A DNA stretch of 53,989 nucleotides, from NCBI GenBank assembly GCA_029268645.1, contig JAQWNI010000171.1, forward strand, positions 1 through 53,989, written 5' to 3'. The notes under the pieces were generated by a model. That model searched no databases, was not told where the DNA came from, and was given only the letters and a program-made list of their open reading frames with translations. Positions 19,023 through 52,404 of this stretch are shown piece by piece. This DNA comes from Myxococcota bacterium (GTDB lineage: Bacteria; Myxococcota_A; UBA9160; UBA4427). Position 1 is the first letter of the stretch, and each line of letters opens with the position of its first letter. The position numbers and the translations under genes were made by a program.

Positions 19023-19069
19023 TCTGTGATCCACGCGGGACGATGTGTTGCAGCGTAGTTCATGGTTAT

Positions 19070-20584: not shown

Positions 20585-21326
20585 TAGAAAGGCTCTTTCT
20601 CTGGCATTTCCGACCCCTTAAGCCAGACTGATCACGACGCTTGCCTCGATGAAGAGTTGAGCTTGGCTTGGCGTTCGAACGCACCTTGGAAGGACTTGGC
20701 CGTGGGGGTTCTTTGAGGTCAGGGTCGTGTCCAGCGGGAACCGTAGCGAATCTGTTGACTGTCATTCATAACAGCTTTGCAGAACCTCAAATCCAGCAAA
20801 AACGTCAGGGTCTCGATGTTTGTCCCAACCAGAATCGGCCGGCAAGTCTCGGGCCGACAATGGGCACGGGGTTCATAGGCCCGTGGTTGGAGAGTTTGGT
20901 GTGCATGTGCGATAGCCGATCTCCGAGAGTAGAATCGAGGGCCTACTGAAGAGATCGCTCTCGTATACGGATTTGCCACGATTGATTCGTCCATCAGACC
21001 CCCTTGGTTGCATCTGAGCGGAGCCTTCCAACCCGACGGGACCTCCGGGGCGGGCTGGCAATCCGGATTTCGATCGACCCCGGGGGCCCCTTTAAAAGGA
21101 GAGGGCCGTACCCCGCGACGTGTCGAGCACCCCTCGTTTTGCATAGAGCCGCTCGTCCATTTTTGCCGCTTAAGAAGTGGCGTCTGGCCAAAGATTCAGG
21201 ACAAAATGACCGATGTTGTCTACAGGGTGGAGTTCTCCGTCTTCGTCTGTGGATTCAGCAGCGACTTTTCGTTTGGGCAGGTGCCCCGCCCAGCCTAGAG
21301 ATCTAGATTCCATCCAATGGAGAGCG
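20585..21326. other. Divergent intergenic region, 740 bp
   Basis: This separates the flippase from the FkbH-like gene. Open frames occur on both strands but all are Arg/Pro/Ser-rich with no family resemblance and no matching ribosome binding site. I see no tRNA, insertion sequence end or long repeat. It presumably carries the promoters of both neighbours. Confidence 0.5.
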
Positions 21327-24085: not shown

Positions 24086-25009
24086 CTACATCCCTCTTTG
24101 TCGGTGAAAGCGACCCATACGCTCAAGTAATCGTGTGGCGATCCAGCCGCCGTAGTATTTGAGTGATTCAATCGGCTGAATACAGTCTCCTGGCGGTCGG
24201 GGCGCCCATCCAAGCTTGCGTAGGAAAGAGTTCAACGCGTAGATCAGGGCATACCTTTTTGTGAGAGCCGTGTAGTAGACGACTCCGATCGAGATTGAAA
24301 CAAGGGCAGCCTTGCGATCAGTGTTGTCATGTCGAGGGAGAGTCCGCGACATGTGGGCCGAAGTGGATGGCATGAAGACCCCTTGTCCGGGCAGTAGGTC
24401 GTCGTGGACGACCGCTCTAGGGGCATGATGCTCTCGCCAGTTGACGTCGGCCAATGACCCCCGAACGATCCACCCTTCTACGGCCAGTTCGTCTACGGTA
24501 TTTCGGTCATTTGGATCCCATGCAGAAAATTGCTTCTGGCCTTGGATCTGAAGGAAGAAGTTGTTTTCTCGGTCTATGTGGAATGGGGTGAGCGAGGGCG
24601 GGGCTGAGATAAAAATGTAGGCATCGGAGTCAAATATAGTTTGACTTTCCTGGCCGATGAGTTGAGCCCCGGCTGCGATGACTTCGTCGATAAGTGGCCC
24701 ATACTCAGGGTCGCTACGGACTTCGTAAATGGCGATCCAGCTTCCGGGTTCATGGAGGTTGTCGAAAATATCGTCGATAGATCGACCCTGCGGAGGTTGG
24801 GTTCCCAAGATGAAGTCTGAGCCAGCCTCAGCGTTGGGGTCAATGAATTTAACTTTTCCCGTTTTCGCTGAATCGAGACGTTTGGCCAGTTCCCGAAGTG
24901 CTTGTGCACTGAGCAATGGATGGTCGGAGAATTCGTGTTCGATGCGGTTTATTTTTCGTGCATCGAAAGGGTGAGTTGACCTGATTTTGCGGTCGCCTAT
25001 GCCCGTCAT
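24086..25009 (-). CDS. JmjC/cupin-like Fe(II) oxygenase
   Basis: 307 residues. The metal triad of the Fe(II)/2-oxoglutarate cupin fold is visible as His144-x-Asp146 in TPFHIDRENNFF and the distal His219 in MPSTSAHMSR, with the typical IQGQKQFSAWDP strand between. This matches transcription-factor-like JmjC or cupin_8 hydroxylases. Its ATG overlaps the upstream hydrolase stop (ATGA), making it the last intact gene of the NRPS operon. A role in hydroxylating a carrier-bound residue or the finished product is an inference from position. Confidence 0.75.
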   Translation of the reverse strand: MTGIGDRKIRSTHPFDARKINRIEHEFSDHPLLSAQALRELAKRLDSAKTGKVKFIDPNAEAGSDFILGTQPPQGRSIDDIFDNLHEPGSWIAIYEVRSDPEYGPLIDEVIAAGAQLIGQESQTIFDSDAYIFISAPPSLTPFHIDRENNFFLQIQGQKQFSAWDPNDRNTVDELAVEGWIVRGSLADVNWREHHAPRAVVHDDLLPGQGVFMPSTSAHMSRTLPRHDNTDRKAALVSISIGVVYYTALTKRYALIYALNSFLRKLGWAPRPPGDCIQPIESLKYYGGWIATRLLERMGRFHRQRGM

Positions 25010-25917
25010 GACTGCCGAGCCTTTGGTGCCAGCGCAACAAGTTCGAACCAGTCGGTCAGGTCCTGAATCAGCCTGTTTCGGTCTTCGGTCGTCTGGAAAG
25101 TGTGACCTGTTTCCGGATAATGGGTTAAGTGAATCAAAGCGGGGCGACTAAGGTTCGGGTACAGGTCGCGTAATTGCCCAGGGTAGTTGTAGTAATTGCT
25201 CCATCCACCCGTAAATCCGTAAAAGAGATGGCAGCCTCGTTGAATTGTTTCCTCGATGTGTCGAGCAATATCATACTTGTCGGAGAGGCCTGTCCTGAAT
25301 AATTCCGGTCGCTCTTTCTCTGAGGAGCGCTTGAATGACCGGCGAAGTAGGTCTTGGATTTGCTTCGGATTGACGTTCTCTAGGCTCAGGAGGTGGTTCA
25401 TTCGCTCTCGACTACGCAGACGGGGGAGATAGTGGTTTAAGTACCATTTGGGTGTCCGGTGAACGGTGGGGTCGAGCAGGGCGGCTCCAACCACTCGCGA
25501 GTCACCGCGCGCTGCCCGGAGCGAGTTGTCGGCGCCGGAGCAGAGGCCGGCCAGAATAAAGCGAGAAACTCCAATTTTTGATTCCAGGAAGTCGAAGGTT
25601 TCTGCAATGTCGACCAATACTCCGTCGGAAAGGGTGCGACCGTCCTTCCGCGGAGGACTGTCGCCGACTCCTGCGAAGTCAAAGCGGAAGGCAGGAAGTC
25701 CGCGCATCGCGGCCGCTCTGGCCAAGCGGACATGAAGACGACTGGGGCCGGCCTTGTGAAGGATTCCCGCATTGAGAATCACTAGGCAGGGTCTATCCGT
25801 GTCAACTTTGACAGAGGGAAGCGTTAGGATCCCATTGAGGTCCGAACTGAAGCCATATTGAATGGCCCGTTCGTCGGGGGAAGTACTGCATTCAGCCGTT
25901 TGGGTTTCAGGGGTCAT
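25006..25917 (-). CDS. Alpha/beta hydrolase, exosortase-A-associated type 1 like, Cys nucleophile
   Basis: 303 residues from ATG 25917, which overlaps the upstream stop as ATGA. The fold is shown by ILNAGILHKAGPSRLHVRLA, FRFDFAGVGDS and the nucleophile elbow GLCSG, where Cys126 replaces the usual Ser. A C-terminal catalytic His is likely in ETGHTF. The HKxGPxRLxVRLAR pattern and the Cys elbow match what I remember of 'hydrolase 1, exosortase A system-associated'. In this operon it may release or edit carrier-bound intermediates, since no thioesterase domain is present in the megasynthases. Confidence 0.72.
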   Translation of the reverse strand: MTPETQTAECSTSPDERAIQYGFSSDLNGILTLPSVKVDTDRPCLVILNAGILHKAGPSRLHVRLARAAAMRGLPAFRFDFAGVGDSPPRKDGRTLSDGVLVDIAETFDFLESKIGVSRFILAGLCSGADNSLRAARGDSRVVGAALLDPTVHRTPKWYLNHYLPRLRSRERMNHLLSLENVNPKQIQDLLRRSFKRSSEKERPELFRTGLSDKYDIARHIEETIQRGCHLFYGFTGGWSNYYNYPGQLRDLYPNLSRPALIHLTHYPETGHTFQTTEDRNRLIQDLTDWFELVALAPKARQS

Positions 25918-26669
25918 GGAGCCAGGCCCGTCCATGTAGAAATGGTTTGAATCGCCCGGGCCGAAACAGGGCCGGCTCCGAAATTGCTCTCTTCAAGCCA
26001 CGGGGGAGGGGCATCGGTCTCTTCGAAAGCCATGCGTCTAAGGTTCTGTCCGATAAGCTCTCGAAAACGATCGGGAATCAGCTTGGAACCCAAGACGAGT
26101 GCCTGGTGGGGCCAAGAAGAATGACTTTCGCGGGGCTCTTTCTTGATCTCCAGAAGCATCTGCTCAAAATCTCGTACGTTTGCAGCGCCTCCCGAATCCA
26201 TTGGCACCGGTTGATCGAGCTGGCCGGTCCACTGTGCGCCCAAGACCGATTGGGAACGGAGGTCAACCGGATCCCACAAGATGAGGCCTTGAGTGTCCGC
26301 GTGTCTCAGCCCAGCGGCGGTCGCGAGGAGCGCTCCGAGCCGAAGGCCGAGAAGGTGTACGCCTTTCAGCTCGGCGATCGCCCTAAGCTCATTGATAGCC
26401 ACCCCGATGTCTTCGACCCAGTCGTTGAGTGTGACCGAATCTACGTCGCCGGCGGAGTCCCCGGTTCCCCGGTAGTCGAACCGCAGGACATGCCAACCGG
26501 ATCGAGCTAGGGAGTCCGACAGGATCCGAAAGGAACGATGTGCGCGGCTAGATTCCGACCCTAAGGGATTGCAGAGGACGACACCCTTCCCTCCGGGTCC
26601 TCGGAGGACGGGCGGATGGTAGAGGCCGTAGAGGCGTTTCCTCTCTGGACCCATAAAGAAAGGGTTCAT
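25914..26669 (-). CDS. Alpha/beta hydrolase-like, exosortase-A-associated type 2, no Ser nucleophile
   Basis: 251 residues from ATG 26669, overlapping the NRPS stop as ATGA; an in-frame GTG at 26750 would lie inside the NRPS. The fold markers are VLCNPLGSESSRAHRS and LRFDYRGTGDS. The elbow reads GLRLG with Arg110 where the Ser/Cys nucleophile belongs, a pattern I recall for 'hydrolase 2, exosortase A system-associated'. So it is probably a pseudo-hydrolase or a binding partner of the next gene product rather than a classical thioesterase. Confidence 0.7.
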   Translation of the reverse strand: MNPFFMGPERKRLYGLYHPPVLRGPGGKGVVLCNPLGSESSRAHRSFRILSDSLARSGWHVLRFDYRGTGDSAGDVDSVTLNDWVEDIGVAINELRAIAELKGVHLLGLRLGALLATAAGLRHADTQGLILWDPVDLRSQSVLGAQWTGQLDQPVPMDSGGAANVRDFEQMLLEIKKEPRESHSSWPHQALVLGSKLIPDRFRELIGQNLRRMAFEETDAPPPWLEESNFGAGPVSARAIQTISTWTGLAP

Positions 26670-29600
26670 GAAAGCTTGCCTTCTCGGGGTGCCCGCATCG
26701 CGATCTGTCGCAGGGTCTGGAAAAAGAGAAGTCTCGGGCTGAACGACCAACCGGTAAGGCTTTCAACTTCTTGAATAACGCGTAGCGCTTGGAGCGAAGT
26801 CCCTCCCAGTTCAGCGAACGAATCGTGAACGCTCACCCGATCCACGCCCAGGAGGTCTTGCCAAATGTGAGCGAAAGTTTTCTCTATAGCGGATTGAGGC
26901 GCTTCGAAGGCCGCGACGGTTGTTTTGCTTGGATCTGGAAGAACGCGAGAACGGACTGCGCCTCCTTTGTCTCGGGGAATGTTGTCGACTGGTAGAATTA
27001 TCCCGCCGAGAGATTGGTCTTTTAACTCACGGGCAAGGGCGTTTCTCAGGGTTGTGGACGTCGGTTCGCGGTCACCGTTGTAGGCAACCCATGTAATCAA
27101 TCTACTGTCCCCGGTCGAGCTAGGGCGGGCTTCAAGGTGAGCATCATCAACGAAAGAGAGGGCTTGAAGGGCTTTTTGAAGTCTCGGGATGTCGATCCAT
27201 CCTCCTTGTGCCCAGACGAGCCCGTCCTGTCTTTCCGAAATATTGAGATCTCCATGAAGTGTCCAGACGGCCCGCCAAGGTGTATTGAAGGGAAGGGTGT
27301 CCCCCAGCTGACTCAAGACAAGCTGACCGGGAATGCCGGGAGGAAGCTCAAGCCCATTACTGTCGATGACACGCGATTCGAAGCTTGGAGCTGGCCCGCC
27401 GGCGAGGGGTTCTCCAGAAGGCGGATTCTCGCTCCGAGGGAAAAGAAGGCCCCAGTGGCCGGTCGAGAGACTGCCGCCAACGTGCCAGGTGCCTTTGGAA
27501 GCGGTTGGGAGGTCGATCTGGAGCCTTTGCGTCAGATCGCCGTGGATCCAAAGCGAATCGAGTCGATTGCCGGCGGTGGCTCCAGGGAGCGCATAAAGGA
27601 GGGCCCCGCCGGTTTCGATACTCGTCGGCTCCAGATGCATGATCCAAGCCCGCAGACGCAACTCATCCACGGCGCAATTCTCGGTTGGAGTCGCCAAGGT
27701 CGCTCCGCTGGCTAGGGCACTGAGTACGGCGGGGGCGAATGCCGGATCATCAGGGCAGAGCAGCATGAGATAACGGTCTCCGGGACCCAGCCCCTGGGCG
27801 CTCTGTCTGCTTTCTAGGACGACTTCCAAGGTTTCCAGAGTGATTGATTGGGTCGATGAGGAGACGGGCCCTACCAGCTGACAGATGTGAGCAGAGGATG
27901 CGCGACGGCTTACTCGAAAAGCTTCCGTGCAGGAGCTTTCTGTAAAAGAGTCAAGGCTCCAGGATGGGACTCGTATATTCCGATCTGCGATCGATGAGTC
28001 GTGGAGAAGAGCACGGCCGCCAATCTGTTCGATCCAGTCGTTTATAGATTTTTCTGGAATGGAGCTGGGAATTGGTGCCCAGCATGCTCCTGCTCGAAGA
28101 ACACCGAGTAAAGCGATGATAGACTCGGGCGAACGTTGCATCTTGATCGCTACGGAATCCCCTTCTTTGACTCCAGATTCCAAAAGCGCACGCGTAATCT
28201 CCAAAGATCGAGCATGCAGAAGTCCTCGATCCCACGTTCCCCGCTCACTTTCAAGTGCCACTGTCGCAGGAATTTCAAGGGCCCGCGTCAGACGATCTGG
28301 ATCAAGCGTTCCGCCAGGGCGAGCATGATTCCACTCCCGCAATTGGCCTCGTTCTTTCTCAGTCAAGAGAGAATGCTGAGAGATGGGTTGGTCCGGAGCT
28401 GAGACCGTACGCTCGAGAACTTGCAGAAGCCACCCAATAATTTTTTCAATGCGCTCCGCCTCGTAAAGGTCGGTTCGATAGTCTATGGCACCCGAAAGGG
28501 TATCCCCGGCGTCGCGAACCCAAAGGTTGAGTTCCGAATGTGTCGCATGGAAATCCTGCGGGATCTGTTCCACCTCAAGCTCCCCCCAGTGGGTGAGCCG
28601 GTCCCCGGTATTCTGGTAAGAAAAGTTGATCTGGAACAGGGAGCTATCTTTCAATTCTCCCGGCATGGCCCTCAGGAAGTCATCGACAGGGCACGCCTGA
28701 TGACTCATGGCCTCGAGGCTAATCTCCTTGACTTTGCGGATCATCTCGCGGAATGAGACCCCGGGTTTCCAGTCGATTCGGAGAAAGAGTGTGTTGGTAA
28801 AGGGGCCAATGACGCCTTCGAGATTGCTCTGGTCTCTGCCTCGGACCGGAGTGGTGATTGTAACGTCGCTTTCGTTGGCCATTCGCCCGACCAAGATGGA
28901 CCAGATGGATAACAGCAACATGTAAACCGTAACGCCTTCACTCCGAGCGAGGTCGGACAGGCGTGCCACAAGATTATCGCTGAGTGAAAAATTAAATCGG
29001 GCACCGGCATGATTGGCTTGCTCGGAGCGTGGATGGTCGGTTGGGATAGGCAATGTTCTCAGACCACCGTAGAGGCGCTGTTGCCAGAAGAGCAAATCTT
29101 CTCGGGCCCGTTCGCTTTGGCCTCGGGCCCGTTGCCAGTAGGCGAAGTCTTCGTAGCGGAGAGCCGGTCGAGAAATTCCAGTTTCCTCTTGGAGGCAATG
29201 CGCCCGATACAGGAGGCCCATGTCCTGCAATAGGATGTCAAAGCACCAACCATCCCAAGCAATCGAATGACTCACAGCGTAAATTGCATGTTCTTGGGGG
29301 CCGAGACGAGCAAGGTACAACCGAAGCGGTGGCTCGCTCGATAGATCAAAAGGAATGCGGGCCATGTCTTCGAGCCATTGTTGGAATTCTGCGTTGCGCC
29401 TTTCCTCGGGCAAGCTCGAAAAATCGATTCGTTGAAGAGGAATCTCGAGTTTAGGATCTTCTTGGCTTGTGACCCGTGACGCTTCTTCAAAAAATCGAGT
29501 TCGAAGCATCGGGTGCATATCAACGAAGTCTGATAGAGCAGCCTGGAGGGCCGTTCTATTCAGTTTGCCTCGAAGGCTCCAAGCTCCTGGTAGATTGTTT

Positions 29601-29890
29601 TCGCCCGATTCCGGGCGAATCTGCTCCAGCATCCAAATTCGTTCCTGAAAGGGCGAGAGGCAACCATCGGCCTGGGGCCCCACCGCAAGGACCGGTGTTT
29701 CTGCGGTCGTTGACTCGGACTTGGCTTCTCGAAGGATTTCAAGAAGATCCACTTTGGCTGCCCTGATTTCACCGCCGAGCGCCTCGTCGATCGAACCTTT
29801 TGGTGCATCAACGATTAGGCGATCGTCCTCCGCGCGGATTCGGATGTCTCGGGCGGCTAGAGCCTTGAGAAGAGCAGCGGCCGACCTCAA
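26666..29890 (-). CDS. NRPS module: TubC docking-C-degenerate A-PCP
   Basis: 1074 residues from a TTG start with GGAGAGGG 7 bases upstream. Residues 1-55 resemble the TubC N-terminal docking domain (LLKALAARDIRIRAEDDRL). A condensation domain spans about 75-510; its HHxxxDG motif reads HSIAWDG, so the catalytic second His is Ser209. The adenylation domain (about 535-970) keeps the overall outline (ALLGVLRAGACWAPI) but has lost the phosphate loop (LVGPVSSST in place of YTSGSTGxPKG), the RTGD and GRxDxQVK boxes and the A10 lysine. The carrier domain is intact (LGGTSL, Ser1032). There is no thioesterase. It overlaps the next hydrolase gene. Confidence 0.88.
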   Translation of the reverse strand: MRSAAALLKALAARDIRIRAEDDRLIVDAPKGSIDEALGGEIRAAKVDLLEILREAKSESTTAETPVLAVGPQADGCLSPFQERIWMLEQIRPESGENNLPGAWSLRGKLNRTALQAALSDFVDMHPMLRTRFFEEASRVTSQEDPKLEIPLQRIDFSSLPEERRNAEFQQWLEDMARIPFDLSSEPPLRLYLARLGPQEHAIYAVSHSIAWDGWCFDILLQDMGLLYRAHCLQEETGISRPALRYEDFAYWQRARGQSERAREDLLFWQQRLYGGLRTLPIPTDHPRSEQANHAGARFNFSLSDNLVARLSDLARSEGVTVYMLLLSIWSILVGRMANESDVTITTPVRGRDQSNLEGVIGPFTNTLFLRIDWKPGVSFREMIRKVKEISLEAMSHQACPVDDFLRAMPGELKDSSLFQINFSYQNTGDRLTHWGELEVEQIPQDFHATHSELNLWVRDAGDTLSGAIDYRTDLYEAERIEKIIGWLLQVLERTVSAPDQPISQHSLLTEKERGQLREWNHARPGGTLDPDRLTRALEIPATVALESERGTWDRGLLHARSLEITRALLESGVKEGDSVAIKMQRSPESIIALLGVLRAGACWAPIPSSIPEKSINDWIEQIGGRALLHDSSIADRNIRVPSWSLDSFTESSCTEAFRVSRRASSAHICQLVGPVSSSTQSITLETLEVVLESRQSAQGLGPGDRYLMLLCPDDPAFAPAVLSALASGATLATPTENCAVDELRLRAWIMHLEPTSIETGGALLYALPGATAGNRLDSLWIHGDLTQRLQIDLPTASKGTWHVGGSLSTGHWGLLFPRSENPPSGEPLAGGPAPSFESRVIDSNGLELPPGIPGQLVLSQLGDTLPFNTPWRAVWTLHGDLNISERQDGLVWAQGGWIDIPRLQKALQALSFVDDAHLEARPSSTGDSRLITWVAYNGDREPTSTTLRNALARELKDQSLGGIILPVDNIPRDKGGAVRSRVLPDPSKTTVAAFEAPQSAIEKTFAHIWQDLLGVDRVSVHDSFAELGGTSLQALRVIQEVESLTGWSFSPRLLFFQTLRQIAMRAPREGKLS

Positions 29891-29921
29891 TGGTCAGCCC
29901 TCTCCGAACCTAGGTAGTCCA

Positions 29922-32900
29922 TCAGAACGAGACCTCTTCACGATTTTTTGATTCGCCGCGGTCCAGCGAGACGCCTTGGCCCAATACTCCGAGAGCATCG
30001 ATGTATTCAGCCAATGCGGCCAGTCCAGGGGTGGCAAAAATTCTTCTGAGGGGGAGTTCAACACCCATCCGCTCACTGACTTGCGCGACCACGCGAGTCG
30101 CTAGGATTGAATGGCCTCCGAGGTCAAAAAAGTCTTCGTCGGCACCGACTTGGTCAACGTTCAGCACCTCGCTCCAGATCAGTGCGAGTTCTCGTTCGAC
30201 GCCGGGCGCGGGCTCTCGGTATTGTCTTCCCGCATCTTGGTCGACGTCGGGCAGAGGCAACGCCTTTCTGTCCGCCTTTTTGTTGGGCGTCAGGGGAATC
30301 GAGTCGAGGCTGATGAAGTGCTGCGGAACCATATAGGCGGGTAGTCGCTGCCCGAGGTGCGCTCGCAGAGCCGATGCATCAGCCAGCCCAGACGCAGCCG
30401 AGACGCAATAGGCAGCAAGGCGTGTATCGCCCGGATCCCGTTCGTACACCATCACCACCGCTTCAGCTACAGAAGGGTGGTCGGCCAAGGCAGATTCGAT
30501 TTCGCCAAGTTCGATTCGATAACCCCGGACCTTGACTTGGCTGTCGAGTCGGCGGCTGAAGACAAGCCGGCCTTTCGTGTCCCATCGTACGAAATCTCCC
30601 GTTCGATAGAGCCGGTCTCCAGCGCGGAAGGGGTTGTCGATGAAGCGCTCCTCTGTCAGTTCGGGCTTTCCGAGATAACCGAGCGTCAGGCCTTCTCCAC
30701 CGATGAAGAGTTCTCCGGGTACACCCACTCCAGTGGGTTCGAGGTTGTTATCCAAAACGTAGACTTGTGTGTTTCCAATCGGTTGACCGATTGGCACAGT
30801 CGTTTCCTCGCCGTTGAGCTCGTGCAACGTCGACCAGATCGTGGTTTCAGTCGGGCCATACATATTGAAGACCCGTGCGGCCCTCGCAGACAGCTCTTTT
30901 GCAAGGTCGGCGGGAAATGCCTCGCCTCCGCAGAGGGCGGTGAATCCTGAACCACCACGCCATCCTGATTCCGAGAGCAGACGCCATGTTGCGGGGGTGG
31001 CTTGCATTGTGCTGGCGTGACTTTGTTCGAGAAGTTTTCGGAGCGCTCGACCGTCACGGGTTTCCGCCTCGGTCGCCACGATCGTGCAAGCCCCAACGGT
31101 TAGGGGAAGGAATAGTTCCAGTACTGAAATGTCAAATGAGAGAGTGGTCACGGCCACTAGTCTGTCCTGCGGACCGAGTCCTGGATTTCGAGCCATCGTT
31201 TCTAAGAAATTCACCACGGCTCGATGCGGCACTTCGACGCCCTTGGGGGTGCCCGTCGAACCCGATGTGTAAATCACATAGGCCCGAGCGTCTTCGTCGG
31301 AGGGCTGGTCCACGGACCGTTGACGGAAGCCCTCGCTGGGTACTTCATCCACGAAGACGGGGCCACCAAGTCGGACTTCGGGCAGGCTTTCAGCGAGGGA
31401 CCTAGTCGTCACCAGGGTCGCTAGATCAGAGTCCTTGACCATATGTCGGATGCGCTGTGGGGGGAATTCTGGGTCGAGAGGCACATAGGCCGCACCGCAT
31501 CTCCAGATCGCAACGGCTGCCACGACCATCTCGATCGAGCGCTCGAGGGCGAGGCCGACGAGGTCGCCCGGTCGAACTCCGATTTCCATCAATCGGTTCG
31601 AGAGAACCAGAGAGTCTTCTTGGAGGGCTCGATAAGTGATGCGATCGTTTCCACATTCGAGCGCGATGGATTCGGGGGTTCGCTCCGCTTGGCCAAGGAT
31701 GATTTCGTGAATTTTAACTGAAGCATCATGGGGCTGTGCTGTCTTGTTCCACGATTCCAAGACAAGCGAGCGTTCATCTGCAGCAACCGTCGGGAGTCGT
31801 CCAATTTCTATTTCGGGTTGATCCGCGACCGTTCGTAGTAGCACCTCGAAGCCAGCGAGCCTGCGGCGTATTGATTCGGAGTGGAAAAGGTTTGTGTTGT
31901 ACTGCGTTGCAATTTCCAAACTGCCCGCAGATTCTGTGAGATTGATGAAGATTTCGAAATTTTCAAAGGCTCGTGGGTTCGATCGAAATTCAACTTCGAG
32001 GTCAGGGAAACCGAGCTTCTCGGGATCGATGGATTGATCGAGGTTGAACTGGATGGGAACTACTGGGACGCGACTGGGATCCCGTGTCATGGGGATCTGT
32101 TTGAGCAGGCTTCCGAAGGTGTACTCCTGGTGGTCGAAAGCGTCCAGAAGAGCGGACTGAGTTTTGGCCAGAAGTTCGGAAAAACTCTCGCCCCACTGGA
32201 TGTGACTTCGAACTGGGAGCAAGTTTACGCAATGCCCGACTACTCCCGGCAAGCCAGCTGCGGATTGGCCTGCGGCGGGAATCCCTGTGACGACATCCCC
32301 GGCACCGGTCAATCGGCTTACGTAGGCCTCCCAGGCAGCGAGGAGAAGTGCAAAAAAACTGACTTTGTGCTTAGCGGCGACATCCTTTAGATCGGAAACC
32401 AAGGTTTGGTTGATCCGCGTGTCGATTCGAGCAGATTCGAAAGTGCGAAGTGCGGGGCGCGGCTCATCAGTGGGCCAGTCGAGGACTGGAACATCTCGGT
32501 GAAATTTTTGAATCCAGAATTCGCAGGTTTCAGTGTCGTCGATTTGCGTGAGTCGATCAGCGTATGCGCTGAAGGGCGTTGCAGGGGGAAGAGTGAGGGG
32601 CGACGCAGAGTTCGTGGTCAGTGCGTAGAGGCTACCCAAGTCTTTTAGAAGAACGGCCGTCGACCAACCATCGCAGACGATGTGGTGAGCGGAAATGATG
32701 AGCTCCGAGAGTGAGTCAGATAATTTGACCAACCAGAATCGAGCCAGTGGGCCATGCTCGAGATCGAATGGTCGTTTCACAGCTTCATGGATTAGCGACT
32801 CCAGCGCTGACGAATTGTGATCCGGACCCTGTGCCGACCAGTCCCTTGAAGTCACGTCAGCAACGCCCACTGGGGCCACGCAAAGTGTTTCGCCGTCCGG

Positions 32901-33155
32901 GCTCAAGGTAGTCCGCAGAGCCTCGTGTCGTTCCACCAAGAGCTCAAGCGCCCGAAGCAGAGCTGGCATGTCGAGTTCGCCCTTGAACCGAAGCGAAACC
33001 GACTCATTAAAAGCGCAGTTTGCGTCGTCGCCCAGCTGGGCCGCTGTCCAGATTTCCTTCTGGGACTCTGTGGCCGAGATGGTCCTGGAGAGTTCGCCCC
33101 CTGCGAATGGGTCGAAATCAACGGGAATTAAGTCGTGTTGGTCCTGCTCACTCAT
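29922..33155 (-). CDS. NRPS module: C-A(Gly)-PCP
   Basis: 1077 residues. Condensation domain about 20-450 with intact HHIVCDG (His157, His158, Asp162). Adenylation domain about 480-960 with YTSGSTGTPKGVEV (629-642), YRTGDFVRW, GRLDSQVKVRGYRIE and NKKADR. The pocket residues I read are D-I-L-Q-L-G-M-I-W-K, one position from the published glycine code DILQLGLIWK, so glycine is predicted. Carrier domain with Ser1016 in LGGHSI. It is the third synthetase of the operon and ends 31 bases before the last one. The upstream donor would be the carrier of the ACP-aminotransferase protein. Confidence 0.92.
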   Translation of the reverse strand: MSEQDQHDLIPVDFDPFAGGELSRTISATESQKEIWTAAQLGDDANCAFNESVSLRFKGELDMPALLRALELLVERHEALRTTLSPDGETLCVAPVGVADVTSRDWSAQGPDHNSSALESLIHEAVKRPFDLEHGPLARFWLVKLSDSLSELIISAHHIVCDGWSTAVLLKDLGSLYALTTNSASPLTLPPATPFSAYADRLTQIDDTETCEFWIQKFHRDVPVLDWPTDEPRPALRTFESARIDTRINQTLVSDLKDVAAKHKVSFFALLLAAWEAYVSRLTGAGDVVTGIPAAGQSAAGLPGVVGHCVNLLPVRSHIQWGESFSELLAKTQSALLDAFDHQEYTFGSLLKQIPMTRDPSRVPVVPIQFNLDQSIDPEKLGFPDLEVEFRSNPRAFENFEIFINLTESAGSLEIATQYNTNLFHSESIRRRLAGFEVLLRTVADQPEIEIGRLPTVAADERSLVLESWNKTAQPHDASVKIHEIILGQAERTPESIALECGNDRITYRALQEDSLVLSNRLMEIGVRPGDLVGLALERSIEMVVAAVAIWRCGAAYVPLDPEFPPQRIRHMVKDSDLATLVTTRSLAESLPEVRLGGPVFVDEVPSEGFRQRSVDQPSDEDARAYVIYTSGSTGTPKGVEVPHRAVVNFLETMARNPGLGPQDRLVAVTTLSFDISVLELFLPLTVGACTIVATEAETRDGRALRKLLEQSHASTMQATPATWRLLSESGWRGGSGFTALCGGEAFPADLAKELSARAARVFNMYGPTETTIWSTLHELNGEETTVPIGQPIGNTQVYVLDNNLEPTGVGVPGELFIGGEGLTLGYLGKPELTEERFIDNPFRAGDRLYRTGDFVRWDTKGRLVFSRRLDSQVKVRGYRIELGEIESALADHPSVAEAVVMVYERDPGDTRLAAYCVSAASGLADASALRAHLGQRLPAYMVPQHFISLDSIPLTPNKKADRKALPLPDVDQDAGRQYREPAPGVERELALIWSEVLNVDQVGADEDFFDLGGHSILATRVVAQVSERMGVELPLRRIFATPGLAALAEYIDALGVLGQGVSLDRGESKNREEVSF

Positions 33156-33167
33156 GGGGGGTGGCTG

Positions 33168-33193
33168 TTCATTCCTCTAATTCATTCCTCTAA
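33168..33193 (-). repeat. Perfect 13 bp tandem duplication before an NRPS gene
   Basis: TTCATTCCTCTAA occurs twice without a gap (33168-33180, 33181-33193). On the coding strand each copy reads TTAGAGGAATGAA, a ribosome-binding-site-like AGAGGA touching an ATG. The ATG of the 5'-proximal-to-gene copy opens a six-codon frame whose TGA overlaps the start of the NRPS gene at 33155. Confidence 0.8.
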
Positions 33194-33212
33194 AAGGGGG
33201 CGCTCTTGGATT

Positions 33213-35285
33213 TCAGGAAACGCGTAAATAATGATTTGGTCGATTGGGATCTGGCACGTACCAGGCTGGTTGCCCTGAGGGATCTTTGCCTAGGCGTGCG
33301 CCCGGGACGGGCGGCTCTTTAGGAATATCGGGAACTGATGCGGTGACCGATCGCAACCGAGGCTTTGCTGCCGGATAGAAACCGTATTCGATCATTTTGG
33401 CGACACTGCGGCGAAATGCTTCTACCATGAGTTCGATTTCTGCCTCTCCGTGGGCCAAGGTGAGGTAGGAAGGGAAACCCTGCTGGAGATAGATTCCTTC
33501 GAGGCGGAGGAAATACCAGAGAAGGCCGCCCAATTCGCTTTCGTCGAGATTCCGCAGATACATCACTGACGCGAAATGTGATAGCTCGACTGGCGCAGCA
33601 TGCTCCTTGAATATGGCGTTCACTCTGTCCGCAAACTGGGCGGTTTTCCGGTTGAGGTCCTCTTGGAGCTCCGGTCCCTCCTCCTTCAAGAAGACGAGCA
33701 TCGCATGCGCCGCAGCGATGGCGAGTGGATGGCGAACGAAGGTGCCGGCAAAGAACGTGACTCCCGCTTCTGGCATCGAGTCGTCACCGTATTGCCACAC
33801 GCCCCCATCAAAGGTGTCCATGACGTCGCTTCGGCCGGCGATGATTCCCATGGGCATGTTCGCGCCAGCGACCTTTCCGTAGGTGGCGAGGTCGGCCGAC
33901 ACATCAAAGTAGCCCTGCGCTCCAGCGGGGTGGCAGCGAAAGCCCGTGACGACCTCGTCAAAGATGAGTAGAGATTCGCACTGCTGGGTGATCCCGCGGA
34001 GAGTGTGGAGAAAATCACGAGGCTGGAGCTCGGGCCTTCGGCTCTGAACAGGTTCGACCAAAACGGCTGCGAGCTTGGGTCCCAATCGTTCGATCACGCG
34101 CAGGGATTCATCTTCGCCGTAGGGTAGGACGACGATATCTTGGACGGCCCGCTTGGGGATGCCAGGGGCTGCGGGGAAAGTGAGTGGTTTGTCGAGGTCA
34201 GATGTACCGCGGACGATCACTTCGTCGAAGTTGCCGTGATAGCTTCCGCTGAAGACAACGATTTTACTCCTTCCAGTGAAAGTGCGGGCGCATCGGATCG
34301 CAGCCTGGACGGCCTCCGAGCCGGTGCACACGAAGCTTGCTCGATCAAGGCCTGTTAATTCGCAAACCAGCTCCGCTGTTTCTCCAGCCAGGGGCGTTTG
34401 CGGACCGACCTCGATGCCGCGATCCAATTGCGTGCGGAGGGCGTCGAGGACGCGCGGGTGGGCGTGGCCGAGGAAGTTGGGCCCGAAGCCATTGAGCAGG
34501 TCGATATAGATGTTGCCATCGATATCTTTTAGGCGCGCTCCTTCCGAGTGCTCAACCACAATCGGATAGACCATCTCCTTCCACGCCCGATGAAAGAGCG
34601 AAGCCGTTCGGGGGTCCGCATGGTGTGCGCGATGCTTTTGAACATGGTCCCGAGACCGGCGGGTGCGATCCACGTACTGTTCGATCAGGTTCTCCAAACC
34701 GAGCCTTCGGTGCTGGTCGAGTTCATCAATTTGGTCGATTCGAAGCGGGCGGTCGTCTCCTCGGCGAGGTTGGACAGGCTGCGGTGGGGCGCTTGCCGTC
34801 TTCCTTGGCTGTGAGGGCAGCGTCGAGGGTGGACTCGGAGCAGCCGCCTCGCTGTGCAGCGTATCGCTTTGGTCCGCGTCTGGTGCTGCGCGCAACGTCT
34901 CGAGTTGTTGTTTCATCAACTCGAGCTGCTTGGCAATGATGGTTTCAATTTCTTGGCGATTGTTTGCGGGCGGACCCGAAGTCGATTGCAGAGCCGAGGG
35001 GGGTGTTTCGGGTGAGGTCTGATTGCATGTGTTAGCTGAGGTGGGGACGTGCGGTGCGATATGCCTCGCCAATGCGTTGATGCTGTTGTGTTCCTCAATG
35101 AGCGAGCGCAGTTTGACATCGATGCCAAAGATGGACCGGATCTCTTGAGTTAGCTGAGTCAGAGAGAGAGAGTCGAAACCCAGTTCGAGAAAATGGACGT
35201 CCGGTGAGAGCTCGGAACCTGACACGCCAGAGAGTTCACTAAGGAGGCTCTGGATGCGGACGGTTAGAGTTTCATTGGGGGGCAT
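33213..35285 (-). CDS. PKS-type ACP fused to class III aminotransferase
   Basis: 690 residues, with AGGA 9 bases before the ATG. Residues 1-80 are an acyl carrier domain with Ser39 in LGFDSL. A linker (80-200) contains a coiled coil (IAKQLELMKQQLETL) and a Pro-rich stretch. Residues 200-660 are a glutamate-1-semialdehyde-aminomutase-like aminotransferase: TGSEAVQAAIRCART, IFDEVVTGFR with Asp443, and the PLP lysine Lys471 in TYGKVAGANM. The end YVPDPNRPNHYLRVS is typical of AMT domains in mycosubtilin-type synthases. It should convert the carrier-bound beta-ketone into a beta-amine before transfer to the glycine module. Confidence 0.9.
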   Translation of the reverse strand: MPPNETLTVRIQSLLSELSGVSGSELSPDVHFLELGFDSLSLTQLTQEIRSIFGIDVKLRSLIEEHNSINALARHIAPHVPTSANTCNQTSPETPPSALQSTSGPPANNRQEIETIIAKQLELMKQQLETLRAAPDADQSDTLHSEAAAPSPPSTLPSQPRKTASAPPQPVQPRRGDDRPLRIDQIDELDQHRRLGLENLIEQYVDRTRRSRDHVQKHRAHHADPRTASLFHRAWKEMVYPIVVEHSEGARLKDIDGNIYIDLLNGFGPNFLGHAHPRVLDALRTQLDRGIEVGPQTPLAGETAELVCELTGLDRASFVCTGSEAVQAAIRCARTFTGRSKIVVFSGSYHGNFDEVIVRGTSDLDKPLTFPAAPGIPKRAVQDIVVLPYGEDESLRVIERLGPKLAAVLVEPVQSRRPELQPRDFLHTLRGITQQCESLLIFDEVVTGFRCHPAGAQGYFDVSADLATYGKVAGANMPMGIIAGRSDVMDTFDGGVWQYGDDSMPEAGVTFFAGTFVRHPLAIAAAHAMLVFLKEEGPELQEDLNRKTAQFADRVNAIFKEHAAPVELSHFASVMYLRNLDESELGGLLWYFLRLEGIYLQQGFPSYLTLAHGEAEIELMVEAFRRSVAKMIEYGFYPAAKPRLRSVTASVPDIPKEPPVPGARLGKDPSGQPAWYVPDPNRPNHYLRVS

Positions 35286-35322
35286 GTCGATATCCTGTGG
35301 TCAATTCCAAGCGGCGAGAAAA

Positions 35323-38300
35323 TTATGTTTTCTTGAGGAGAGCAAGCTGCTGTTCAATTAGGTCTAACTGGTTCTCGATGAGCACTGTGACGGAGCTCTC
35401 TGTTGAATCGACCCTTTGAATCGGGCGGGTGGCGCTTTGAGAGGCGGCGTTGATTTCGATCCAATGGCGTTTCCTCTGGAACGGGTACGTCGGGAGCGAC
35501 ACCCGGCGTTTCTCTTGTGCCGCAAAGAAAATTTCCCAGTCGAGATCGACGCCTAGTGTCCAGAGGCGACCGACTGCGTTGAGAAAAGAAGAGGGCTCCT
35601 GCTCAAGGTCGCCCGCCGCTTCGAGGGTCGATACGACGCGCTGCCCCAACTCGGGCCCGCCGGTCTGTCGGGCAAAAGTACTCGTCGTATTGCGTGGGCC
35701 GACCTCTAGGAAGACCTGGTCCGGGGCGACCTCTCGCGCCGTCCGAAGGGCGTCTGCGAACCGTACCGGTGACCGGGCATGACGTGCCCAGTAATTCGGG
35801 TCTTGCGCTTCGTCCGGCGACAGGGCCCTGCCTGTGGCCGTAGAAATAATGGGCAGTGTCGGGGCATTGAGACTTTTTCGAGCCACCTGCTTCCGAAAAG
35901 GTTCAATGATGGGATCCATCATCGCGGAGTGGAAGGCGTGCGAGGTGTGGAGAATTTGATTCACCACGCCCAGGCTCTCCAATTCCACGCTCAGGGCGTC
36001 AATCTGTGAGGAAGGGCCGGAGACGACCGACAAGATCGGTGAATTTTCGCAGGCGAGAGAGAGGCCGTCGGGGAGAATGGCCTTGAGCTCTTCAGCGCCC
36101 ATTCTCGCCGAGAGCATTGAGCCTGCGGGCATTGACTCCATCAGGCGCCCACGTTCCGCGACCAGAACGAGGGCTTCCTCTAAGGACATTACGCCCGCAA
36201 GGCATGCAGCCGTGAACTCTCCCACGCTATGCCCGATCATCGCGGTTGGCGTGATTCCTAAACCCATCCAGAGGCGAGCTAGGGCGTATTCGATGCTGAA
36301 AATAGCCGGCTGTGTAAAGGCTGTTTTTTGGAGCGTTTTGGCTGCTGCGGTTTCTTGACCCAATTCGGGGTGAAGCAGGCGGATCAGATTGAGCCCGCAG
36401 TGTTCTTGGAGGATGGCCGCGCAGGCGTCCAGGGCTTGACGGTAGAGGGGCTCAACGGCGTAGAGGCCTCGACCCATGTGCGGAGATTGGCAGCCCTGGC
36501 CTGGGAAGAGGAAAACCACGCCTGGTGGCCTTTGGGGCGCTTCGGACCGGCGAACTCGAGGTCCAGGCCCATCGCCTCGGAGTAGCTCGGCGGCCGAATT
36601 GTGGTCCGGGGCGACAAAAAAACTTCGATGAGAGAGGGGCTTTCGGCCGATCGCCAAACTCCAGGCGACGTCGCCAAGACCCTCGGCACTTTCAGATTGG
36701 AGATATTGAGCGAGCTTGCTTTCGAGCGTTTGGCAGCGGTCTGGGTTTTGGCCGGAAACGAGCAGAAGGTGTGCGGGTCGCCGAGTCGGCTCGCAGCGGG
36801 GCTGATCCCAGTATTCTTCCAGGATCACGTGTGCATTGGTGCCACCCACGCCGAAGGAACTGACCCCGGCTCGGCGAGGTGCATTGTGAGTATTCGTCCA
36901 GTGCATGGTTTGTTGAGAGACGAAGAAAGGAGTCTTCTCGAAGTCAATCTCGGGATTTGAGGATTCAAAGTGGAGGCTCGCCGGAATCTTCTGGTGTCGA
37001 AGGGCTAGCGCCGTCTTGATAACGCCCGCGACGCCCGCTGCGGCGGTGAGGTGGCCAACGTTGCTCTTGACCGAGCCCAATGCACAAAATTGAGTTCGCT
37101 CAGTGCTTTCCCGGAAGGCTTGAGTGAGCCCAGCCACTTCAATCGGATCACCGAGGGGTGTGCCCGTACCGTGGGCCTCGACGTAAGAGATATCTTCAGC
37201 AGAAAGGTCTGCCTGCTCCAGAGCCATTGCGATGACGCTCGCTTGGCCTTCAATGCTCGGAGCTGTGAAGCTTGCTTTATCAGCTCCATCGTTATTCACG
37301 GCTGCGCTTCGGATCACCGCGTGAATGGTATCGCCATCCTCTACCGCATCGGTCAATCTTTTGAGAACCACCATTCCGGCGCCGTCACTGAATACCGTTC
37401 CGGTGGCGTCAGCATCAAACGGCCGGGTGTGCCCGTCTACGCTCTGCATGCCCCCTTCAAGGTGAAGGTGACCACTCCGAATGGGCGCTGTCACGGCCAC
37501 GCCACCGGCCAATGCGATGTCGCATTGGCCTGCTCGGAGCGCATGAAACGCTTGAGAGATCGCGACCAGGGAGGTCGAACAGGCACTCTGCACGTTGACC
37601 GCCGGTCCCTTGAGGTCCAGCTTGTGAGCCACGCTGATCGGGGCGTAGTCCTTGTCGTTCACCAGGCGTGCTTGAAGAGTGCCCACGGACTCTGAAAGGT
37701 CAGGTCTTTTCCACAAAAAATTGGGTTGGTAGGTGTTGTGAACGACGCCACCGAAAATTCCAATCAGGTTTTCACATCGTGAAGGGTCGATACAGGCATC
37801 TTCGAGAGCAGACCATGCGGTCTCGAGAAAAACGCGTTGCTGTGGATCCATCACTTGCGCGAGTCGTGGGCTGACGCCGAAGAATTCCGCGTCGAAGCAA
37901 TCCCCATCCTCAAGGATTCCTCTTGCGGCTACGTAATGGTCTGCAGTGGTCTCACGCGGGTCGTTGCCGGGGTCGAGCTCGTCCGTCTCGAAGAAAGAAA
38001 TTGACTCACGGGCCTCGCATAGATTGCGCCAAAAAGACGGCACGTCCGCTGCCCCTGGAAAGCGCCCGGCCATACCCACAATGGCGATTCGCTCGAGAGC
38101 GCTGTTGTCTTGCCGGCCGTTCCGTCTGGTCCGGCCGGAACGACTCCCCTGCTTGACCCATTCCGCCAAGTCGAGGGCTGTCGAGTGTTGAAAAACTCGA
38201 ATGGGCGGAATCTCGATGCCGTGCCGCCGCTTCATTTCCTCTACGAAGCGCAGAGCCAGCAGAGAGTTGGCCCCGAGATCGAAAAACGAGTCCGTTGACG

Positions 38301-40068
38301 CCAGTCCGTCACGGTCGAGAATTTCCGCCCACAAGTTGGTCATTTGGGATTCGAGGGAGTGACCCGATGCCCCCCCACGATGGCTGGTTTCTGCTCGTTG
38401 GGCTGGGAGCGCACCTCGGTCGATTTTTCCATTTGGGTTCATGGGCATCCGTTCGAGGATCACCCACTCGTCGGGAAGCATGAAGTGGGGTAAGCGAGCG
38501 TTCAGGAAATCCCGCAGCTCCTCTTGGCTTGGGGGGTGGCCTTGCAATGGACCGGTGATGTAGGCGATGAGTTTGCGCGACTCACCTCGGAGGGGAGCAA
38601 TGACTGCGACATCTCGCACTTGGGGGTGTGAGGAAATGGATGATTCGATTTCGCCGGGTTCGATGCGGTAGCCCCGGACTTTAATCTGTCCATCGACTCG
38701 CCCGATGAATTCGAGAAGTCCATCTGGTCGCCAGCGGACTAGGTCACCGGTCCGGTAGCATCGGGCTTGCGGATGATCGGAGAAAGGATCGGTGACAAAC
38801 GACTCATCGGTGCGCTTTGGTTGATTCAAGTAGCCGGTGGCCAGGCCGTCTCCACCGGCATACAACTCGCCGGCTTCTCCAACGGCAACTGGATTCATGT
38901 GCTCATCGAGGACTCGAATCCAGCTATTGGCAATGGGTCGGCCGATCGGCACGGAATCGCCGACCTCATCCCCTGGCTGGAGAACGTGGCAACAGGTAAA
39001 GGTCGTGTTTTCCGTCGGCCCGTATCCATTGATGAGCCGACTACCGGGGGGCATGGCCTCGAGGACTCGACGCACCCGCTTCGGGGACAAAACATCGCCC
39101 CCAGCCAACAATTGCCTTACTCCGGCCAGCGCATCGGGGAAGTAATCCGCCATTTCATGAAAGAGCGCGGCGGTCAACCAAGCCGTCGTAATTTTCCGAG
39201 TCGCGAGAAATGCGGATAGATCCTGGAGAGACTGAATACCGCTTGGGAAAAGATGGAGCTGCGCGCCGTGGAGTAGGGCTGACCAAATTTCAAAAGTCGA
39301 GGCGTCAAACCCCATAGGGGCGAAGCAGAGAATTCTTTCCTCGACACCCCACTGTGCAAAATCGTTGTTCTCGACAAGGCGAAGGATCGCACGGTGCGGA
39401 ATGCACACTCCCTTGGGTTCACCGGTGGAGCCCGACGTATACATCACGTAGGCGATGTCGAGTGGGCGCCGGTCGACCAGGGGACGCCCCGCCGATACGT
39501 CTCGAAGCCAGGAGCTGCCGGGATCGACAGAAAAACACTCCAACCGAACTCCAGGTGGGAGGGCGCCGTGGAGGGTCTGGCAGCGGCCGCTGCCGGCTTG
39601 ATTCGTCAAGATTGTTTCGAGGTGAGCTTGCTGAAGGATTTGCGCCAGGCGGGCGTCTGGAAAGCTCGGGTCCAGGGGGACGTAGGCTGCCCCGGTCTTG
39701 AGGATGCCGAGAATCCCAGCGAGCATTTCCGGCGATCGTTCCAGGCAGATCCCGACGAAGTCTCCGGTTCCGATGCCGTGGCTCAAGAGCCCGTTCGCGA
39801 TTCGGTTCGCCCAGGCCTCTAGCTCGGAATACGGAATTCGTGTTGCAGCCCAGAGCGCCGTGGCGGTCGGGGATCGGTCCGCTTGTTGTTCGAAGCAAGT
39901 GGCGACATCGGAATCCCGCGGGTAGCTAGAGGAGCGTCCGTTCCATTCTGAGGGCACAGGCATGGGGCTGGCGGTCGGCCCCCGTGACTCGAACTCCGCC
40001 GATTCCGGCGACGGGATGGAGTTGGGCTCCGTGGTCGGGGGCGGCATGTTATGACGGTCAGTAGACAC
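35323..40068 (-). CDS. Hybrid NRPS-PKS: A-PCP-KS-AT
   Basis: 1581 residues from GTG 40068 (GAGG 10 bases upstream; a frame open further upstream is less convincing). Adenylation domain about 50-560 (YTSGSTGEPKGV, YRTGDLVRW, GRVDGQIKVRGYRIE, NGKIDR); pocket residues D-A-F-W-L-G-G-T-F-K, close to the valine code DAFWIGGTFK. Carrier Ser602 (LGANSL). Ketosynthase with Cys830 (QSACSTSL), EAHGTGTPLGDP and KSNVGHL. Acyltransferase with Ser1281 (GHSVGE) and HAFH, the malonyl-type motif. No ketoreductase or dehydratase. A C-terminal coiled coil (NQLDLIEQQLALLKK) is a likely docking element to the ACP-aminotransferase, 37 bases downstream. There is no starter C domain, so this is the loading protein. 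Confidence 0.92.
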   Translation of the reverse strand: MSTDRHNMPPPTTEPNSIPSPESAEFESRGPTASPMPVPSEWNGRSSSYPRDSDVATCFEQQADRSPTATALWAATRIPYSELEAWANRIANGLLSHGIGTGDFVGICLERSPEMLAGILGILKTGAAYVPLDPSFPDARLAQILQQAHLETILTNQAGSGRCQTLHGALPPGVRLECFSVDPGSSWLRDVSAGRPLVDRRPLDIAYVMYTSGSTGEPKGVCIPHRAILRLVENNDFAQWGVEERILCFAPMGFDASTFEIWSALLHGAQLHLFPSGIQSLQDLSAFLATRKITTAWLTAALFHEMADYFPDALAGVRQLLAGGDVLSPKRVRRVLEAMPPGSRLINGYGPTENTTFTCCHVLQPGDEVGDSVPIGRPIANSWIRVLDEHMNPVAVGEAGELYAGGDGLATGYLNQPKRTDESFVTDPFSDHPQARCYRTGDLVRWRPDGLLEFIGRVDGQIKVRGYRIEPGEIESSISSHPQVRDVAVIAPLRGESRKLIAYITGPLQGHPPSQEELRDFLNARLPHFMLPDEWVILERMPMNPNGKIDRGALPAQRAETSHRGGASGHSLESQMTNLWAEILDRDGLASTDSFFDLGANSLLALRFVEEMKRRHGIEIPPIRVFQHSTALDLAEWVKQGSRSGRTRRNGRQDNSALERIAIVGMAGRFPGAADVPSFWRNLCEARESISFFETDELDPGNDPRETTADHYVAARGILEDGDCFDAEFFGVSPRLAQVMDPQQRVFLETAWSALEDACIDPSRCENLIGIFGGVVHNTYQPNFLWKRPDLSESVGTLQARLVNDKDYAPISVAHKLDLKGPAVNVQSACSTSLVAISQAFHALRAGQCDIALAGGVAVTAPIRSGHLHLEGGMQSVDGHTRPFDADATGTVFSDGAGMVVLKRLTDAVEDGDTIHAVIRSAAVNNDGADKASFTAPSIEGQASVIAMALEQADLSAEDISYVEAHGTGTPLGDPIEVAGLTQAFRESTERTQFCALGSVKSNVGHLTAAAGVAGVIKTALALRHQKIPASLHFESSNPEIDFEKTPFFVSQQTMHWTNTHNAPRRAGVSSFGVGGTNAHVILEEYWDQPRCEPTRRPAHLLLVSGQNPDRCQTLESKLAQYLQSESAEGLGDVAWSLAIGRKPLSHRSFFVAPDHNSAAELLRGDGPGPRVRRSEAPQRPPGVVFLFPGQGCQSPHMGRGLYAVEPLYRQALDACAAILQEHCGLNLIRLLHPELGQETAAAKTLQKTAFTQPAIFSIEYALARLWMGLGITPTAMIGHSVGEFTAACLAGVMSLEEALVLVAERGRLMESMPAGSMLSARMGAEELKAILPDGLSLACENSPILSVVSGPSSQIDALSVELESLGVVNQILHTSHAFHSAMMDPIIEPFRKQVARKSLNAPTLPIISTATGRALSPDEAQDPNYWARHARSPVRFADALRTAREVAPDQVFLEVGPRNTTSTFARQTGGPELGQRVVSTLEAAGDLEQEPSSFLNAVGRLWTLGVDLDWEIFFAAQEKRRVSLPTYPFQRKRHWIEINAASQSATRPIQRVDSTESSVTVLIENQLDLIEQQLALLKKT

Positions 40069-40765: not shown

Positions 40766-40910
40766 TGAGAGCCTCCAGGTGTCCCCCGCTCTACGGATCG
40801 AAAGGCACTTGAGTTGAGAGCCCACTCCAAATTCCCACGGGGCATTATTGAGTGGGCCAACCAAAGCTGGCATTTCTGAGAAAACTCGGGCACAATCCAG
40901 GCTGTTATTT

Positions 40911-40922
40911 GACCGATCGGTC
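40911..40922. promoter_or_regulatory. TetR-type operator palindrome
   Basis: GACCGATCGGTC is a perfect 12 bp palindrome inside TTTGACCGATCGGTCAGAA, the shape of many TetR/AcrR operators. It ends 15 bases before the start of the diiron gene and just after a TGTTAT that could be a -10 box. The TetR gene two genes on at 42181 is the natural candidate to bind it. Confidence 0.55.
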
Positions 40923-40937
40923 AGAAAAGGAGAGGCC

Positions 40938-42107: not shown

Positions 42108-42180
42108 GGAGTACGTCTTTTAGGGTTGCGTGGGTGGTTGGCCCGATTTACCTCGATCGGCAATGGGATAGAATCTGGCG

Positions 42181-42840: not shown

Positions 42841-42908
42841 AGCCGGCCCTTGTTCTTCCTAGGGCCCCACTCGTTCAGGCGCCCCAACCCCAAAGGACGT
42901 GCGAATAC

Positions 42909-44081: not shown

Positions 44082-44142
44082 ACAGCGGTGCTGTCTTGCG
44101 CCATCTCTCGACCCGTGATGTGCTCTTTTCGAGGTCATCCGT

Positions 44143-45348: not shown

Positions 45349-45383
45349 GTTTTCTCTCTGTGACGGCGGGCTAGGGTTTGATC

Positions 45384-50833: not shown

Positions 50834-50892
50834 TGCTGGGGCGTCCGGTCTCACTGCAGGCAACCCAAGCTTTTCCAGGAGGAAGGCCCATT

Positions 50893-51372: not shown

Positions 51373-51384
51373 AACTGTTTTTGG

Positions 51385-52401: not shown

Positions 52402-52404
52402 TTC

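Follow-up and report, generated by a model that had tools for sequence, protein, structure and literature searches.

Assembly lines with embedded aminotransferase domains are already described. A 2013 survey of embedded pyridoxal phosphate (PLP) domains tabulates the order A-CP-KS-AT-CP-PLP1, including Thiocapsa marina (F9UAS6), and also covers Pedobacter heparinus C6XWU5, Salinisphaera shabanensis F7QBN5 and Thiorhodococcus drewsii G2E5C9 (PMC3870968). It is a domain survey in which the product is not given, and the words 'vicinal' and 'exopolysaccharide' are absent from its main text (PMC3870968). We analysed a 53,989-nt contig of a Myxococcota bacterium (JAQWNI010000171.1; 'the window' is this whole stretch), which carries a nonribosomal peptide synthetase-polyketide synthase (NRPS-PKS) operon with adenylation (A), carrier (T or ACP), ketosynthase (KS), acyltransferase (AT), aminotransferase (AMT) and condensation (C) domains. 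The surveyed lines (A-CP-KS-AT-CP-PLP1 and KS-AT-CP-PLP1) have the same core order and glutamate-1-semialdehyde (GSA)-type aminotransferase as the window line (PMC3870968). The line of T. marina, the nearest cultured relative found, also shares its downstream C-A-T and C-(A*)-T modules, A* being a degenerate A domain, and its pair of alpha/beta-hydrolase-fold genes, hyd2-hyd1. As in MycA of mycosubtilin and iturin, ACP-AMT follows KS-AT for an on-line beta-amine; unlike them, the window line starts from an amino acid on A-T rather than a fatty acyl group (ACL-ACP), has a short chain and no thioesterase (TE), and is not predicted to give a cyclic lipopeptide. Statine-type NRPS-PKS lines also join an amino acid and malonate into a gamma-amino acid skeleton, whereas the window line has an AMT and no ketoreductase (KR), and a beta-amine is predicted instead of a beta-hydroxyl. 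The layout belongs to a broad kind that has already been catalogued; of more interest is its TE-less, hyd1/hyd2-linked and glycan-associated context. Judging from neighbours conserved in many bacteria, the product is probably passed on to a surface polysaccharide and not released free.

Six-frame open reading frames (ORFs) and Pfam searches revealed a seven-gene operon on the minus strand: four NRPS/PKS genes, followed by hyd2, hyd1 and a cupin-like gene. A first-pass annotation of the window had described the four proteins, on one strand and lacking a KR, and this was confirmed: their domain order is A-T-KS-AT, ACP-AMT, C-A-T and TubC_N-C-A*-T, and Pfam detected no KR in them. Their Pfam domain E-values ran from about 1e-8 to 1e-86, so the domain assignment is not due to chance. 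The extent given by that annotation held for these four genes, but the operon continues to 24086 through the two hydrolase-fold genes and the cupin-like gene, with overlaps of 4 nt or 22 nt. The start of hyd2 (26669) overlaps the stop of the last NRPS gene by 4 nt, and the start of the cupin-like gene overlaps the end of hyd1. No TE was found anywhere in the operon. Its features are as follows.

40218-35323, minus: A-T-KS-AT protein (ORF and Pfam)
38425..39894, minus: A1, adenylation domain of the loading module, code DAFWLGGTFK (PF00501/PF13193; code by alignment to GrsA PheA positions)
38155..38343, minus: T1 carrier domain, DLGANSLLAL (PF00550 and Ser motif)
36820..38094, minus: ketosynthase, Cys in ACSTSL, His in HGTGT and NVGHL (Pfam and motifs)
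35656..36516, minus: acyltransferase, GHSVG and HAFH, malonyl-type (Pfam and motifs)
35285-33213, minus: ACP-AMT protein (ORF and Pfam)
35058..35258, minus: ACP of the ACP-AMT protein, ELGFDSLSL (Pfam and motif)
33366..34724, minus: class III aminotransferase (AMT), PLP lysine in DLATYGK (Pfam and PDB match)
33155-29922, minus: C-A-T protein (ORF and Pfam)
31770..33083, minus: C2 condensation domain, intact HHIVCDG (Pfam and motif)
30276..31691, minus: A2 adenylation domain, code DILQLGMIWK (Pfam and GrsA alignment)
30000..30188, minus: T2 carrier domain, DLGGHSILA (Pfam and motif)
29890-26666, minus: TubC_N-C-A*-T protein (ORF and Pfam)
29726..29875, minus: TubC_N docking domain (PF18563)
28340..29662, minus: C3 condensation domain, second catalytic His lost, HSIAWDG (Pfam and motif)
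26900..28270, minus: A3*, degenerate adenylation domain without TSGSTG, GPTE and NxK (Pfam and motifs)
26699..26872, minus: T3 carrier domain, intact Ser, ELGGTSLQA (Pfam and motif)
25914..26669, minus: hyd2, alpha/beta-hydrolase fold, nucleophile elbow GLRLG with no Ser or Cys (profile match, alignment and model)
25006..25935, minus: hyd1, alpha/beta-hydrolase fold, Cys nucleophile in GLCSG, predicted acyltransferase or release enzyme (profile match, alignment and model)
24086..25009, minus: Cupin_8-like protein, HxD...H, last operon gene (PF13621 E 1.9e-5, below the Pfam cut-off)

Motif inspection indicated that the active motifs are kept in KS, AT, the ACP and T domains, A1, A2, C2 and AMT. 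As a control, the GrsA reference stretch for reading the codes gave back the published PheA code DAWTIAAICK. We take the A1 code to be Val-type and the A2 code to be Gly-type. The HAFH motif of the AT is of the malonyl type. In a PDB sequence comparison, the best matches of the AMT were 6kfm/6kfu, the mycosubtilin AMT (E about 1e-122 for the domain and about 1e-131 with the ACP); the domain matched 6kfm at 4.8e-122 and the next kind, GSA aminomutase (GSAM), at 2.3e-57, and its PLP lysine aligned with DLVTYGK of the mycosubtilin AMT. Relative to TMED88, a metagenome-assembled genome (MAG) of the same genus, dN of the AMT was 0.075, the lowest together with KS. With a Val-type A1, a Gly-type A2, a malonyl AT, a mycosubtilin-like AMT and no KR, a beta,gamma-diamino acyl-glycine is the natural prediction. 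A1 would load L-valine, one malonate would extend it, and the on-line PLP aminotransferase, which we infer to act on a gamma-amino-beta-keto chain, would turn the beta-ketone into a beta-amine. The 3,4-diamino-5-methylhexanoyl unit would then be coupled to glycine, giving a predicted 3,4-diamino-5-methylhexanoyl-glycyl thioester on the carrier. Overall, this assembly-line chemistry is well supported. The first-pass annotation had proposed the same valine-malonate-glycine product, and the A codes, HAFH, the kinship of the AMT and the missing KR support it. Its concern about an inactive AMT was not borne out at the sequence level, where the PLP lysine is kept and constraint is strong, and the only candidates for a KR in trans are distant genes outside the operon. 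An open literature search on natural beta,gamma-diamino acids gave nothing relevant, which is weak evidence of absence.

Although that product prediction stood, the accompanying claim that no described cluster has this layout did not: it recurs across many phyla and is tabulated in the survey (PMC3870968). A scan of genome contigs, from which 80 loci were kept, showed the KS-AT-T-AMT-C core in at least 60 related loci of many phyla, many with an amino-acid loader; most of the 80 have KS-AT-T-AMT-C-A. Code alignment placed a Val-type A domain before KS in Verrucomicrobia, Rhodobacterales, Variovorax, Planctomycetota and the window genus, a Pro-type in cyanobacteria, Bacteroidota, Verrucomicrobia and a mycobacterial MAG, and a Thr-type in Burkholderiales and others. 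An FkbH-type loader stands upstream of KS in place of A-T at L021, L025, L030, L032, L037, L041, L044, L055 and L089, presumably providing a glyceryl starter for a 3-amino-4,5-dihydroxy acid. Within the window's family, the line was present in 2 of the 30 genomes searched, its own and TMED88. Five loci (L041, L025, L037, L040 and L055) have an A-less C-T module followed by C-A[Gly]-T, the carrier domain having been checked in L041 only, and a single Gly-type A domain may serve two carriers there. Two Variovorax plasmids (L092 and L093) carry lines of the same family with a 2-oxoglutarate (2OG)-Fe(II) oxygenase upstream and TIGR04325 methyltransferases downstream, and no hyd pair in the stretch.

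Three features had been missed in the earlier reading: the dead C3, the hyd1/hyd2 pair replacing a TE and the polysaccharide-locus setting. In the last module, A3* lacks the core A motifs and has no specificity code, and C3 has HSIAWDG where HHxxxDG is expected, while the T3 serine is intact. We therefore rejected both A3* and, in the window clade, C3 as active domains. In a quick maximum-likelihood tree of the AMT, the window falls into one group (support 99) with TMED88, two Thiocapsa and a gammaproteobacterial MAG; a Gemmatimonas MAG branches next (98). The loss of the C3 histidine (H[SA]xxWD[GA]) occurs in exactly the five loci of this group, the window and L012-L015; other hyd-linked lines keep it. 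Compared with TMED88, dN/dS was about 0.1 in proteins with unsaturated dS. It reached saturation (dS) in C3, A3* and the cupin-like gene, but their frames are intact, and no operon gene had a frame break; A3* is 64% identical to its TMED88 counterpart. The sequences indicated that the empty last module is retained, not decaying, and with its C and A domains dead it would contribute a carrier domain only.

The hyd2-hyd1 pair replaces a TE in lines of three AMT clades, often with a phosphopantetheinyl transferase (PPTase). A hydr1-like match (E 1e-10 or better) was found in 16 of the 20 line genomes searched, and the pair is encoded near the line on the same contig in 15 of them (hydr1-type matches and locus matches). 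In alignments, the Cys in GxCSG of hyd1 was invariant (20/20), with conserved Asp and His, whereas the hyd2 elbow has Arg or Gly (GxRLG or GLGLG) and Ser or Cys in 0/19; the GxSxG nucleophile serine of serine alpha/beta hydrolases and thioesterases was found in neither hyd1 (20 sequences) nor hyd2 (19 sequences). Models of hyd1 and hyd2 adopted the alpha/beta-hydrolase fold (mean pLDDT 86 and 76). A conserved pair of a Cys-nucleophile protein and a nucleophile-less partner in place of a TE is, on this sequence evidence, the new element here. SyrC, CmaE and other alpha/beta hydrolases with a Cys nucleophile move aminoacyl groups between carriers; by analogy, this would fit a transferase role for hyd1.

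The pair is also found fused: Azospirillum, Rhizobium and Shinella plasmids encode a hyd2-hyd1 protein, about 600 aa long, that keeps the Cys. In annotated records, the fused protein is near an ACP and an amino-acid:ACP ligase or AMP-ligase, or inside a glycan locus, and no assembly line of the window type was present in the stretches read around it. Flippase and glycosyltransferase genes are present at L152, L153 and L156; in the fused protein of L152, the hyd2 half carries a Ser (GHSIG). The Azospirillum and Rhizobium plasmid loci L150, L151 and L154 contain an ACP, an acyl-CoA dehydrogenase, an amino-acid:ACP ligase, DUF1839, a GH2-like protein and the fused hyd2-hyd1. The window's own genome has a second hyd2-hyd1 on another contig (G000:C255, L105, 3-5127); a KS-AT-KR-DH-(A_C)-T type PKS precedes this pair and an XrtA-type glycosyltransferase follows it. 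A matching second pair in TMED88 (L143, 1097-12570) has a PKS of this type before it and XrtA-type or GT2 glycosyltransferases after it.

Two polysaccharide genes lie 3.5-7 kb past the operon end in the window, and the same is seen in TMED88:

19070..20584, minus: Wzx-type oligosaccharide flippase, Polysacc_synt (profile match)
17832..19034, minus: GT4 glycosyltransferase (profile match)

Among 20 genomes, mostly hyd-positive, 11 have a flippase no more than 20 kb from the AMT (expected 0.52, P = 1.4e-13), as do 5 of 14 with clades collapsed (expected 0.28, P = 4e-6). Poly_export or Bac_transf was found within 35 kb in 15 of 40 genomes chosen by AMT alone (expected 3.5, P = 5e-7). These nulls assume simple uniform placement, and distances were taken by hand from lists of coordinates. 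At five loci, Parvularculaceae or alphaproteobacterial, only -4 to +37 nt separate the end of hyd1 from the flippase start. L015 lies within an XrtA-type exopolysaccharide (EPS) locus, the Variovorax paradoxus line (L094) continues straight into Wza/Wzc genes, and the Aliiroseovarius line (L095) is inside an EPS locus. The exosortase, chain-length and ligase genes of an XrtA/PEP-CTERM EPS locus, present around L015, were not recognised among the window ORFs scanned. An open literature search on polysaccharide-linked NRPS/PKS and exosortase-associated hydrolases gave nothing relevant, again weak evidence of absence.

These results suggest that hyd1, with its Cys nucleophile, and the nucleophile-less hyd2 would take the chain off the line. 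The most likely acceptor would be a surface glycan, lipid-linked or still growing, on which the flippase and glycosyltransferase encoded nearby act. We give about an even chance to this explanation as a whole, in which the line builds a diamino-acyl-Gly and hyd1/hyd2 move it to a glycan. Several points weigh against it. For several hyd-positive lines (G063, G075, G080 and G083), no flippase lies close by on the contig of the line. Accessory genes tend to gather in EPS loci, so linkage cannot be equated with function. The explanation does not account for the passage of the chain past the dead C3. It is quite possible, if on balance doubtful, that hyd1 acts instead as an ordinary thioesterase, hydrolysing a free diamino dipeptide (or lactam) from T2 or T3 for export by the flippase, a MOP-family protein that could carry a free peptide, or by another pump, the EPS genes being incidental. 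The structures closest to the hyd1 model are esterases and lipases, not known acyltransferases, and the hyd2 model is likewise nearest to esterases and lipases. Genomic islands gather both kinds of gene, and related Rhodobacterales lines end in a normal TE yet also lie near EPS genes, so the setting alone is no proof of glycan attachment. However, the linkage to flippase and EPS markers is strong in unrelated clades, in five loci the flippase follows hyd1 in operon register, the hyd pair stands beside carrier proteins in glycan loci without a window-type line, and the hyd1 nucleophile is always Cys, not Ser.

Other alternatives concern the chain itself. T3 might receive a second glycine from A2 acting in trans, to give X-Gly-Gly: relatives have either a single Gly-type A domain for two T domains, at one or the other position (L025, L037, L040, L041 and L055 versus L035), or two Gly-type A domains (L030, L032, L044 and L067). 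This is unlikely for the window, where a C3 without its catalytic His could probably not condense a second residue, and still plausible for relatives. A statine-like gamma-amino-beta-hydroxy unit, which would require that the AMT be skipped or that a KR in trans act on the same ACP, is very unlikely. Short-chain dehydrogenase/reductase (SDR) genes do occur in the window (11249-12001, 14196-15044 and 48505-49224), but outside the operon, with roughly 8-13 kb or more between them and its ends; moreover, the related lines seen have an AMT and no KR in line, and the AMT is among the most constrained domains. That the line is a relict with a decaying last module is most improbable of all: A3* and C3 are dead, but this double loss recurs with open frames in all five loci (window genus, Thiocapsa and the gammaproteobacterial MAG), and the intact frames and the low dN/dS of the other domains speak against decay.

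Further genes surround the operon. The cupin-like protein is a possible 2OG-Fe(II) hydroxylase, judging from its motif; its gene has an orthologue in TMED88 and a 33% match near L072. One gene lies convergent to the operon:

21213..23447, plus: FkbH-like HAD protein, DFDNT (no Pfam match; motif and matches to loaders upstream of KS in relatives)

It is conserved in TMED88 and was considered as a loader of T3, but outside the genus it shows no linkage to C-A*-T lines, and it was kept as a lead only. A divergent block at 40848-46301 (a protein without a family name, a TetR regulator, two P450s and a fatty-acid-hydroxylase family protein) was left out of the pathway as apparently unrelated; ORFs of similar size stand at the same place in TMED88, no systematic search having been made in other relatives. 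A B12-binding radical SAM protein, a BATS-domain protein and an LPG_synthase_TM protein lie close together at 49328-53607, and a Ser/Thr kinase with an N-terminal dCache sensor domain lies at 12070-14172.

We tentatively propose, while thinking it doubtful in its full breadth, that a wide class of NRPS-PKS lines builds, instead of free metabolites, amino-acyl substituents for surface polysaccharides, here a beta,gamma-diamino acyl-glycine, and that the hyd pair, fused on some plasmids, is a general carrier-to-lipid-linked-glycan transferase. If so, orphan assembly lines of many uncultured phyla, exosortase-A-type hydrolases so far annotated by neighbourhood only, and the amino-acid:carrier-protein ligase clusters of rhizobia and Azospirillum would all be ways to attach amino-acyl groups to surface glycans, each unit bearing as many as two amines in the present case. 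The use of gamma-amino-beta-keto chains by the AMT also becomes testable and would be a route to vicinal diamines. In Dlt D-alanylation and in mycobacterial PKS-to-sugar acyl transfer, a carrier-bound (amino)acyl group is likewise moved onto a glycan or sugar. The transferases differ, being the MBOAT protein DltB and PapA, which to our knowledge are not homologous to hyd1/hyd2. Exosortase A-associated hydrolases 1 and 2 (TIGR03100 and TIGR03101) are distant homologues of hyd1/hyd2 and also form an adjacent pair in polysaccharide loci. The window proteins score far under their curated cut-offs (hyd2, 93.9 versus 202.75 bits; hyd1, 67.7 versus 168.45 bits) and, unlike those hydrolases, are paired with an NRPS-PKS line.

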